From contig JACRAK010000008.1 in NCBI GenBank assembly GCA_016234725.1, positions 1-42,309 of the forward strand: 42,309 nucleotides of DNA, given 5' to 3'. This document shows, one piece after another, positions 314 through 41,269 of the stretch. Below the pieces are notes generated by a model. The model made no database searches. It was given only the letters and a program-made list of their open reading frames with translations, and was not told where the DNA came from. The position numbers and the translations under genes are program-made. The stretch's first letter is position 1; every line of letters starts with the position of its first letter. The stretch is from Candidatus Azambacteria bacterium (GTDB lineage: Bacteria; Patescibacteriota; Minisyncoccia; GWC2-36-17; WO2-46-25).

Positions 314-513
314 ATTATTGGTTAGTTAAAAAATTGGAAAAAATGTGTTTGTTGTGCGCTTCGCGCACCCGAACCGCCTCCTCCTCAACCGGAAAGTCCG
401 AATGGATTTTTCCGAACCGTGGCGATTTGCCGCGTCCCGCCTTGCGGGACGCGGAGATGCCGAGGGGCGAAGCCCCGAGGCAACCTCTTCCGAAAATTTG
501 ACTTGTCTTGAAT

Positions 514-667
514 GGTCGCGTATCCTGAATTTAGCGCGAACCCATTTTGAGCGAAATTGCTGACGCAATTTCGCGGCAATTCCCAAAACCCGCTCGGGTG
601 CGGCGGAAGGAGGGGGTTGGGGGGGAGGAATTCCGCCGCACCCTCGCTTCGGAAAAATTCGCGCCGA
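514..667. repeat. Left copy of ~154-bp inverted repeat flanking the two-gene unit
   Basis: ggtcgcgtatcctgaatttagcgcgaaccc...ttcggaaaaattcgcgccga is the reverse complement of 2518-2670, with one G-run length difference and one substitution seen by eye. Contains nested palindromes (GCGAAATTGC/GCAATTTCGC; GGGTGCGGCGGAA/TTCCGCCGCACCC). Confidence 0.95.
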
Positions 668-754: not shown

Positions 755-783
755 TTGACAGGAACAATGTAATATGCTATACT
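755..783 (+). promoter_or_regulatory. Consensus sigma70-type promoter
   Basis: TTGACA (755-760), 17-nt spacer, TATACT (778-783), upstream of the two-gene unit. Confidence 0.85.
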
Positions 784-875
784 TAACACATAATTTGAGA
801 TGGTAGATTTCCTCTCAAATTAGCGAAAATAGCTCTTTGATAAGCGAGAGAAATACAAGGGAAAAGTCCTCTTTT

Positions 876-976
876 CCTCGGGAGTAGCGAAGTGGGTATC
901 TTAAATTGAGGTATCTAGCTCGCTACTCATGTCGAGGAGCCCTTGGTGCGGGGAACGCATCAATTTCACGCTCACG
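876..976 (+). ncRNA. Structured leader RNA motif, copy 1 (unassigned)
   Basis: P1 CCUCG(876-880)/CGAGG(933-937); P2 GAGUAGCGA(882-890)/UCGCUACUC(920-928); P3 hairpin ~893-917; P4 UUGGUGCG(943-950)/CGCAUCAA(956-963), loop GGGAA. 922-976 is identical (55/55) to 1917-1971. Confidence 0.8.
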
Positions 977-1028
977 AGGTGGCTAACGCCAAATTCAAAC
1001 CTCAAGAGCAAGAAAGTGGAGGAAAGCC

Positions 1029-1715
1029 ATGAAACACATCATGATGTCCAACGCGTGGGAGTTCGGAACGGATCCGTTCGCGGCCTACCGGGCCAACCTG
1101 GTCTACGGCCGAAACAAGCGCGACAGGGAGTTCCTGCCGGTCAAGGACGTGACCCCGATGACGCAGTACACGGTCACCGCCGACTACGGCAAGATCCTGT
1201 ACATCGGTACAGACAAGTCCGCGGCCGAGGCGGCGAAGGCGAAGTACGACGCGGAGCAGAAGGCGAAGGCCGAAAGCTCCTCGTACTGGACGCCGACCGC
1301 CGACCTGAAAGCCGGCCTGCCGACGCTTCCCGAGGGCAAGTTCCGCGTCATCAAGACGAAAGAGAAGGGCACCATCCTCGTGGTGCCCGGGAGCGACGAC
1401 ACGAATCGTTGCTTCCTGTTCGTCGGGTGCGCGGGCGGTTTCCGTGGCGGTGTCGGTGTCATCAGCGACGGCACCACCGGCACGATCCTCAAGGAGTGCT
1501 CCGCAGGCAACAACTGCGAGTCCTCCACCGAGGTCGTCGTGCTCCTCGAGCAGGGCCAGTCGGTCGCGTTCCACACGTCGGGCCGCCGCACCAACGAGGT
1601 GTACCAGTACACCTGGAACGGTGCGGAGGTGGAGAAGAAGCACTTCTCCAAGTCCGAGTGGGACAACCGGAACGCGGTTGCCGCACCGCCCATCGAGGAC
1701 GCCGAAGTCCTGTAG
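1029..1715 (+). CDS. Hypothetical protein (228 aa), GC-rich codon usage unlike neighbours
   Basis: Intact ORF with GGAGG-like SD (gtggaggaaagccATG), directly downstream of structured leader copy 1. Confidence 0.85.
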   Translation: MKHIMMSNAWEFGTDPFAAYRANLVYGRNKRDREFLPVKDVTPMTQYTVTADYGKILYIGTDKSAAEAAKAKYDAEQKAKAESSSYWTPTADLKAGLPTLPEGKFRVIKTKEKGTILVVPGSDDTNRCFLFVGCAGGFRGGVGVISDGTTGTILKECSAGNNCESSTEVVVLLEQGQSVAFHTSGRRTNEVYQYTWNGAEVEKKHFSKSEWDNRNAVAAPPIEDAEVL

Positions 1716-1743: not shown

Positions 1744-1768
1744 GGGAAGTTCTCTATAAAAACTTCCC
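1744..1768 (+). other. Stem-loop just upstream of the hammerhead
   Basis: GGGAAGTT(1744-1751)/AACTTCCC(1761-1768). Confidence 0.8.
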
Positions 1769-1769
1769 A

Positions 1770-1820
1770 CTGTTCCTCGGATGTGTATCCGAGCTGATGA
1801 GTCCGAAAGGACGAAAACAG
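1770..1820 (+). ncRNA. Hammerhead ribozyme (type III topology)
   Basis: CUGUU-C|CUCGGAU-GUGU-AUCCGAG-CUGAUGA-GUCC-GAAA-GGAC-GAAAACAG. Stem I 1776-1782/1787-1793; CUGAUGA 1794-1800; stem II 1801-1804/1809-1812; GAAA 1813-1816; stem III 1770-1774/1816-1820; predicted cleavage after C1775 (UUC triplet). Confidence 0.93.
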
Positions 1821-1862
1821 ATAGCACTTTGAGAAAACATAAACGAGAATATCTTCCTATCA

Positions 1863-1971
1863 CTTCGTGGGTAGCATAGTGGATGTCTTTGGAAAAATAA
1901 AAAAGATTTTCAGTATGCTACTCATGTCGAGGAGCCCTTGGTGCGGGGAACGCATCAATTTCACGCTCACG
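1863..1971 (+). ncRNA. Structured leader RNA motif, copy 2 (unassigned)
   Basis: P1 CUUCG(1863-1867)/CGAGG(1928-1932); P2 GGGUAGCAUA(1869-1878)/UAUGCUACUC(1914-1923); conserved block 1917-1971 identical to copy 1, including the P4 hairpin. Confidence 0.8.
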
Positions 1972-2006
1972 GCCACAGGCCACGAGCACGAAAACAGGAG
2001 GATGAC

Positions 2007-2375
2007 ATGAAAGTTTTCTGGACGTCTCGGCACGACCTCTCTCCGGCGCAGGTGTCGGCAATCCGCGCGCTTCACGGCGAGGACGCGGAAGTGGTAAAGG
2101 ACCCCGTGGTGTTCTCAAACACCGACGGGCTCGCGGATTACATCCGCAGCCACTCCGACAGTTTCGTCTACGCAGTCGCCGGTGCGCCGCACTACATCAC
2201 GGCGGCACTCGCGGGTCTCCGCTTCGGTGTGTTCGAGAACCACCCGCAGAAGCGACAGGACGGATCGTTCGGTCTCGCCGCTGTCTACCACGTGGACGGC
2301 TCGCTCAAGAAGGTTTGGGTCAATCCCGACCCGACGAGCGACAAAGGCGAGGCGCTGATCCCCGTCGCTCGCTAG
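2007..2375 (+). CDS. Hypothetical protein (122 aa)
   Basis: ATG at 2007 with AGGAGG SD at 1996-2001; MKVFWTSRHDLSPAQVSAIRALHGEDAEVV... Confidence 0.85.
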   Translation: MKVFWTSRHDLSPAQVSAIRALHGEDAEVVKDPVVFSNTDGLADYIRSHSDSFVYAVAGAPHYITAALAGLRFGVFENHPQKRQDGSFGLAAVYHVDGSLKKVWVNPDPTSDKGEALIPVAR

Positions 2376-2396: not shown

Positions 2397-2440
2397 GAGC
2401 CCCTTATGACAAAACATCGTCATTCGGGGCTCTTCTTTTT
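2397..2440 (+). terminator. Rho-independent terminator
   Basis: GAGCCCC...GGGGCTC followed by TTCTTTTT. Confidence 0.85.
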
Positions 2441-2517: not shown

Positions 2518-2670
2518 TCGGCGCGAATTTTTCCGAAGTGAGGGTGCGGCGGAATTCCTCCCCCCAACCCCCTCCTTCCGCCGCACCCGAGCGGGTTTTG
2601 GGAATTGCCGCGAAATTGCGTCAGCAATTTCGCTCAAAATGGGTTCGCGCTAAATTCAGGATACGCGACC
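2518..2670. repeat. Right copy of ~154-bp inverted repeat
   Basis: Reverse complement of 514-667. Confidence 0.95.
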
Positions 2671-2734
2671 AAAAGATTGAAAAAGATGTGACCCGGGTTT
2701 TCCGCCAGCTGGCGGATCCCAGTGGCCCGACCAT

Positions 2735-3977: not shown

Positions 3978-4484
3978 CTATTCATGAAGGGTCAATTTCG
4001 TATAGCTAGGCGTGTGTTTTACGAGTTCTTCGGGCTTGAACCAGATACCCACCTCTACAACCGCTTCTTCCGGTGTCGCGGACGCATGAATGAGATTGAA
4101 CACACCCATCTTTCTTTCATCGGCGAAACGATATGAGATATGCGCATAGTCGCCGCGGATCGTTCCCGGGGCCGCTGACTTCGGCTCGGTCGCGCCGATC
4201 ATCTTGCGCACCACTTCAACCACATCGATGCCCTCAAGCACCATTGCCACGATCGGGCCTGACGTAAGCATCTCGATCATCATCGTGCGCACATGTTCCC
4301 CTCGGCGCTTTGCGAGATCCTCAGTATAGTGCAATGCGGCCGTGTCTTTTTCAGACACAAGCAATTTCATCCCAACCATTTTCATACCCACCCGTTCAAA
4401 TCGCGTGATGATCTCGCCAACGATACCGCGATCAAGCGCATCGGGTTTTAAAATGACGAGTGTCCGTTCGTTTATTTTTGACAT
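3978..4484 (-). CDS. ndk: Nucleoside-diphosphate kinase
   Basis: ERTLVILKPDALDRG ... NLIHASATPEEA active-site His motif. Confidence 0.96.
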   Translation of the reverse strand: MSKINERTLVILKPDALDRGIVGEIITRFERVGMKMVGMKLLVSEKDTAALHYTEDLAKRRGEHVRTMMIEMLTSGPIVAMVLEGIDVVEVVRKMIGATEPKSAAPGTIRGDYAHISYRFADERKMGVFNLIHASATPEEAVVEVGIWFKPEELVKHTPSYTKLTLHE

Positions 4485-40612: not shown

Positions 40613-40684
40613 GTTCTCATTGCTTTTTGGTCTTTGACAATCATATAAACTACCAACCGCAACAGAAACCCTAAGGAGGTCTCT

Positions 40685-41269
40685 ATGTTCACTGTCGGAG
40701 TATTCGGATCAGCATCAGGCACAGGAGCGAATGAACCAGGCAACAAAAAAGCTGCGCATAGTCTCGGGTATGAGATTGCAAGAAACGGCATGACGATAAT
40801 CACAGGTGCATGTAACGGATTACCGCATGAGGCTGTAAAGGGCGCACGCGAACAGAAATACACCGCGCTGACCATCGGCATCTCGCCCGCAATGAACAGG
40901 GAAGAACACGTTGAAAAATACCAGGCTCCTACCGATCCCTTCTCTGCGTTGATCTATACCGGCATGGAACGGAAGGGAAGAAACCTTATATCGGTGCGCA
41001 GTTGCGATGCGGCGATATTTATCGGCGGAAGGATGGGTACGCTCAACGAATTCACCATCGCCTACGATGAGGCGCCCGATGGCTTTATCATCGGCATCCT
41101 CGCTGACAGCGGCGGCCTCTCAAGCGAATTCGCAAAGCTCGTGGAGAAAAGCGGAAAAGGAAGCCGTGCAAGCATCATAACGCTGGCTGATCCCATCAAG
41201 CTGGTGAGCCGCATATTCGATGAACTGCTTCTTTCGCGCGGAAGCAAGAGCAAAACAGCAAGGCGATAA
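40685..41269 (+). CDS. SLOG/LOG-like Rossmann nucleotide-binding protein
   Basis: TIITGACNGLPHEAVKGA and IFIGGRMGTLNEFTIAYDE (GG.GTL.E signature). Confidence 0.85.
   Translation: MFTVGVFGSASGTGANEPGNKKAAHSLGYEIARNGMTIITGACNGLPHEAVKGAREQKYTALTIGISPAMNREEHVEKYQAPTDPFSALIYTGMERKGRNLISVRSCDAAIFIGGRMGTLNEFTIAYDEAPDGFIIGILADSGGLSSEFAKLVEKSGKGSRASIITLADPIKLVSRIFDELLLSRGSKSKTARR

Follow-up and report, generated by a model that had tools for sequence, protein, structure and literature searches.

A type III hammerhead ribozyme with an abutting hairpin and a boxA-like leader between two genes of a Patescibacteria chromosome

In the chromosome of an uncultured, ultra-small bacterium of the Patescibacteria (CPR), a canonical type III hammerhead ribozyme separates two small genes, at positions 1770-1820 on the + strand of the window, by which we mean the whole stretch of 42,309 nucleotides analyzed here. 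The site is a genuine additional member of a ribozyme class that is already known, as is the idea that such ribozymes process phage transcripts (Perreault et al. 2011). The hammerhead probably cuts a transcript shared by the two genes, ORF1 and ORF2, into two separate messages, and we consider it likely that it serves as an intercistronic processing module whose co-transcriptional cut leaves both messages with protected ends. The features to which we refer are as follows.

513..667, + strand: left arm of an inverted repeat of about 155 nt that brackets the operon
755..783, + strand: probable operon promoter, extended -10 sigma-70-type, TTGACA-17-TATACT (11/12 consensus positions; consensus match only)
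826..1028, + strand: leader 1, with boxA-like box, hairpin 882-928, 55-nt exact repeat 922-976 and SD
832..843, + strand: boxA-like box GCTCTTTGATAA, first element of leader 1
1029..1715, + strand: ORF1, 228 aa, without known domain; two further genomes of the class have relatives
1744..1768, + strand: 8-bp hairpin GGGAAGUU/AACUUCCC with a loop of 9 nt; ends 1 nt short of the ribozyme
1770..1820, + strand: type III hammerhead ribozyme (sequence, RF00008, covariance model R1, shuffles)
1821..2006, + strand: leader 2, with boxA-like box, hairpin 1866-1926, 55-nt exact repeat 1917-1971 and SD
1824..1835, + strand: boxA-like box GCACTTTGAGAA (GCACUUUGAGAA), first element of leader 2
2007..2375, + strand: ORF2, 122 aa; relatives 65-77% identical in three other MAGs
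2397..2440, + strand: intrinsic terminator by consensus match, a 7+5 bp hairpin with UUCUUUUU after it (z -7.8)
2518..2671, - strand: right arm of the inverted repeat, about 155 nt

Structure and class of the ribozyme

Every element of the hammerhead named in a first-pass annotation of this DNA is found in the sequence where it had been placed. Stem III is formed by CUGUU (1770-1774) and AACAG (1816-1820), stem I by CUCGGAU-GUGU-AUCCGAG (1776-1793) and stem II by GUCC-GAAA-GGAC (1801-1812); these stems of 5, 7, and 4 bp, respectively, are Watson-Crick paired throughout. The core sequence CUGAUGA (C3U4G5A6N7G8A9) occupies 1794-1800, and GAA (G12A13A14) follows directly after stem II at 1813-1815. 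The NUH17 triplet is UUC (1773-1775), with C1775 as H17, and the topology, in which stem III is open and stems I and II are closed by loops, is that of type III; both had been proposed in the first pass. Its predicted cleavage position, between C1775 and C1776 with the 5'-OH at 1776, is likewise what the sequence leads us to expect. Hammerhead cleavage yields a 2',3'-cyclic phosphate and a 5'-OH. In a plain fold stems I and II form (z -3.0), and stem III is formed only in part when folding is unconstrained. The spacer is intergenic, as had also been noted, since ORF1 ends at 1715 and ORF2 starts at 2007.

Comparison with covariance models, which the first-pass annotation had put forward as a check, bore out the assignment in one respect and fell short in another: matches exist, but none for 1770-1820 reaches the Rfam gathering threshold. 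The best Rfam family, RF00008 (Hammerhead_3), scores 28.6 bits (E 3.4e-4 in a 381-nt search) against a gathering score of 48.5 bits, which is a curation cut-off and is not meant as a biochemical feature. Our own covariance model R1, trained on 54 viral hammerheads of uniform length with the window excluded, gives the window copy 61.7 bits (E 2.7e-17). Because these matches exist, the lack of any covariance-model hit, which had been named as a ground for giving up the assignment, does not arise. A complete type III descriptor (stems I/II/III of at least 5/4/4 bp) matches the window only at the 1770-1820 site and had 0 matches in 60 dinucleotide-shuffled windows (5.1 Mb, both strands), and the window has a single site for the 23-nt core when as many as three mismatches are allowed, with none expected by chance; for the exact core, 0.00 matches are expected in shuffles. 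Thus, although the missed gathering score would fit a chance hammerhead-like sequence that does not cleave, the empty shuffles, the E value of an independent model, and an architecture common to 75 viral loci (among the matches listed) and 35 Patescibacteria loci make this reading exceedingly improbable.

The window copy belongs to a phage-type subgroup because it shares the RUGWGURY end of stem I and the NAAA loop. We defined this phage-like type III subgroup by a stem I of 5 bp plus a RUGWGURY loop end and a stem II of 4 bp plus NAAA; the window copy has AUGUGUAU and GAAA. The pattern CTGATGAGTCCNNNNGGACGAAA is abundant in IMG/VR, from which at least 75 distinct complete type III hammerheads were extracted; the 54 that were aligned come from 75 such sequences among the matches listed. 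In this alignment 99.8% of stem cells are paired, with 224 double changes, figures that lean upward because paired stems were a criterion for entering the set. When the module was run by plain blastn against records of phages and plasmids, no match came up, as expected for a short structured RNA.

The operon, its leaders, and the upstream hairpin

The ribozyme lies on a chromosomal contig that has housekeeping-like reading frames past its first 4 kb (by eye) and three tRNAs. ORF1 and ORF2 are predicted to form a two-gene operon served by a promoter and a terminator of its own. No known domains were found in either, and ORF2 has a confidently predicted alpha/beta fold (pLDDT 86). We rejected ORF2 as a ring nuclease or other defense protein (no match in PADLOC, and no fold match in PDB or BFVD at E <= 0.001), as well as a direct phage origin of the ORFs, which have no relatives in the IMG/VR patterns, PHROGs, or INPHARED. 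A tie between the ribozyme and either gene family was also rejected: no hammerhead lies near the ORF2 homologues in G321 and L136 or near the ORF1 homologues in G340 and G215, which makes the ribozyme dispensable to these genes. Both families are rare and most of their homologues have no ribozyme beside them; thus, the module moves independently of its genes. On the minus strand at about 2450-2517, a hairpin followed by GTTCTTTGA, reading left, faces the operon terminator and is conserved in G001:C66.

Leaders 1 and 2 are paralogous, since both open with ATAGCNCTTTGA and their repeats (922-976 and 1917-1971) are identical; their long hairpins differ in sequence. An exact-match scan for the leader in other genomes gave no match. 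The box of leader 2 stands 3 nt downstream of the ribozyme. Both leader boxes agree with the boxA consensus, and each matches 10/12 positions of GCCCTTTGACAA (GCCCUUUGACAA), the box in the organism's own rrn leader, 65 nt before the 16S gene. A 10/12 match alone is weak because two of the four + strand window sites that reach it lie outside the leaders, and the argument is therefore one of position. Similar boxes occur in several rrn leaders of the surveyed genomes, notably G000 and G039 (AGTTCTTTGAAAATC in the latter). The rrn boxB-boxA-boxC antitermination leaders, to which NusB/NusE bind (PMC5725501), are alike in that a boxA-like GYNCUUUGANAA lies close to the beginning of a structured leader, whereas the window boxes precede small protein-coding genes, the box of leader 2 is directly 3' of a ribozyme, and Nus binding here is putative. 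Elsewhere in the window, a boxA-like GGTCTTTGACAA at 40629-40640 lies upstream of the ORF at 40685-41269. The 16S rRNA gene at L205 (G000:C5) has a large insertion with an apparent LAGLIDADG-type ORF inside.

On the other side of the ribozyme, the hairpin at 1744-1768 is ruled out as an intrinsic terminator because no U-tract follows it and stem III begins 1-2 nt later. Instead, we propose that it caps the 3' end of the ORF1 message. This bears on a different reading, in which an active ribozyme destabilizes or silences one cistron, possibly modulated by a ligand or protein through the leader hairpins, the cut causing either the 3' end of ORF1 or the ORF2 message, with its 5'-OH, to be degraded or poorly translated. 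The highly structured leaders (z -5.4 and -6.0) are in keeping with such a switch, and hammerheads have earlier been proposed as regulators (PMC3088659). However, the upstream hairpin and the downstream stem I that flank the cut look protective, leader 2 retains a complete SD, and the ribozyme has the usual conserved loops, RUGWGURY and NAAA, into which an aptamer would not fit; we therefore regard regulation of this kind as unlikely.

Recurrence in phages and Patescibacteria

The abutting hairpin is a recurrent feature. Counting hairpins of at least 6 bp that end no more than 2 nt from the ribozyme, we found them at 48/64 (75%) non-redundant viral hammerheads among the matches listed and at 21/42 (50%) Patescibacteria hammerheads, compared with 12-14% at control positions and 9-10% in shuffles. 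Their stem sequences vary widely and their position is kept. The hairpin-ribozyme half of the module is thus common to phages and Patescibacteria, and phages as well as other Patescibacteria have the module between short ORFs that are unrelated. The boxA-like box has a narrower distribution. A GTTCTTTGA-like box (at least 8/9) within 40 nt downstream of the hammerhead occurs at 10/35 Patescibacteria loci, versus about 0.3% in controls, and at 0/75 viral loci among the matches listed; because it is missing from all 75 of these viral cases, boxA is at most a lineage-specific companion. The window's own box matches 7/9 of the GTTCTTTGA pattern and therefore falls outside the 10/35, its support being the match to the organism's own rrn leader.

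In a census with R1 at a cut-off of E <= 0.01, at which most matches were far below 1e-7 and a handful were weak, 31/392 genomes of the class and 47/389 genomes of a phylum sample were matched. About 8-12% of sampled Patescibacteria genomes therefore carry such hammerheads. Several contigs have two to six copies, spaced ~0.6-1.6 kb apart within clusters, and the clustered hammerheads sit between short co-directional ORFs. One Patescibacteria contig (L193, G516:C16) holds six type III hammerheads between short ORFs of the same strand; five of the six fall within a stretch of about 3.2 kb. The closest parallel to the window is G161, from a different family of the class, where an ORF2 homologue (65% identical) is preceded by a hairpin, a hammerhead whose stem II contains a short inserted hairpin, a boxA-like box, and a leader, in that order.

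Two further observations concern structured spacers. In G161, two near-identical spacers (L132:2094-2185 and 4210-4300) have a hairpin and CTCAACTGAGCTGACGAGAGAAATTTCGAAGGCTCTGAGAGG at the expected hammerhead position; these elements are hammerhead-like but degenerate, and might be a variant ribozyme or, together with the hairpin, a switch. In G321, a repeated structured leader with compensatory changes (L133 11314-11364 and 13969-14019; on the reverse strand, TCCGAGTCCC...GGGATTCAGAGG) precedes small cassette genes and had no Rfam match among the pieces searched.

It might also be asked whether the hammerhead is a passive relic of a phage or mobile element, carried along with the ORF1-ORF2 cassette and possibly cleaving, without a selected function here. 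The identical loop signature is abundant in IMG/VR (at least 75 loci), both ORFs are patchily distributed, and the operon is bracketed by inverted repeats and missing from the two genomes of the same genus. Yet the core is intact, as are all the stems, which are fully paired; the match of the boxA and leader is to the host rrn type and not to viral loci; and about 8-12% of Patescibacteria genomes show this layout again, so that we think a relic improbable. The inverted repeats themselves (513-667 / 2518-2671) are near-perfect, and an 80-nt core of them is also found in the sister genome G001 (C66, C30). As transposon ends, they show no clear target-site duplication by eye; in G001-G003 the operon flanks are too diverged or fragmented for an empty-site comparison.

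Transcript processing and its wider context

Since the cut is flanked by a hairpin upstream and a complete leader downstream, the simplest reading is that the hammerhead produces two end-protected mRNAs. RNA polymerase would start at about 790, read through ORF1 into the hairpin and the ribozyme, continue through leader 2 and ORF2, and stop at the terminator near 2440. Once position 1820 had been transcribed, the ribozyme would fold and cut after C1775, as its intact consensus suggests. The 3' end of the ORF1 message would then consist of a strong hairpin with a 7-nt tail that carries a 2',3'-cyclic phosphate, and the ORF2 message would begin with a 5'-OH and the stem I hairpin. Both the usual exonucleases and RNase E-type decay that depends on a 5'-monophosphate should act poorly on these two ends. 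Each message would retain its own boxA-type leader, where Nus factors may load at boxA. Because the boxA-like box lies 3' of the cut, it should remain with the elongating polymerase as the upstream message is released.

Engineered insulators of the RiboJ type combine a hammerhead with a hairpin in 5' UTRs, the hairpin being downstream of the ribozyme. The window arrangement is similar in that a hammerhead paired with a hairpin separates transcript segments, but in this natural case the hairpin precedes the ribozyme and directly adjoins stem III. A closer relationship is with the type III hammerheads of bacteria and prophages, which share the core, the topology, and the loop-bearing stems I and II (RF00008; PMC3088659). 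According to Perreault et al. 2011 (PMC3088659), tandem bacterial and prophage hammerheads cleave in vitro, one set also in E. coli, and for clustered prophage hammerheads the authors proposed the processing of long transcripts into gene-length mRNAs; thus, location between short ORFs, tandem arrays, and a proposed transcript-cutting role are common ground as well. In contrast to those examples, the window copy is on a Patescibacteria chromosome and scores below the Rfam gathering threshold, and its abutting upstream hairpin and downstream boxA-like leader were not found described in the available sections of that paper.

Our findings show that hammerheads are common in this phylum, in which we found none described in open-access full text; nor did we find there any description of their frequency or of the hairpin-ribozyme-boxA arrangement. 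The Rfam threshold would overlook the copy at 1770-1820. The broader proposal, for which we see the case as evenly balanced, is that a hairpin, a type III hammerhead, and a boxA-type leader form a recurrent Patescibacteria module that would cut long, antiterminated transcripts of small cargo-gene cassettes co-transcriptionally into end-protected single-gene mRNAs. This arrangement, in which most phage hammerheads abut a 3'-end hairpin and many of those in Patescibacteria are accompanied by a boxA-like box, is testable, and is the part worth pursuing.
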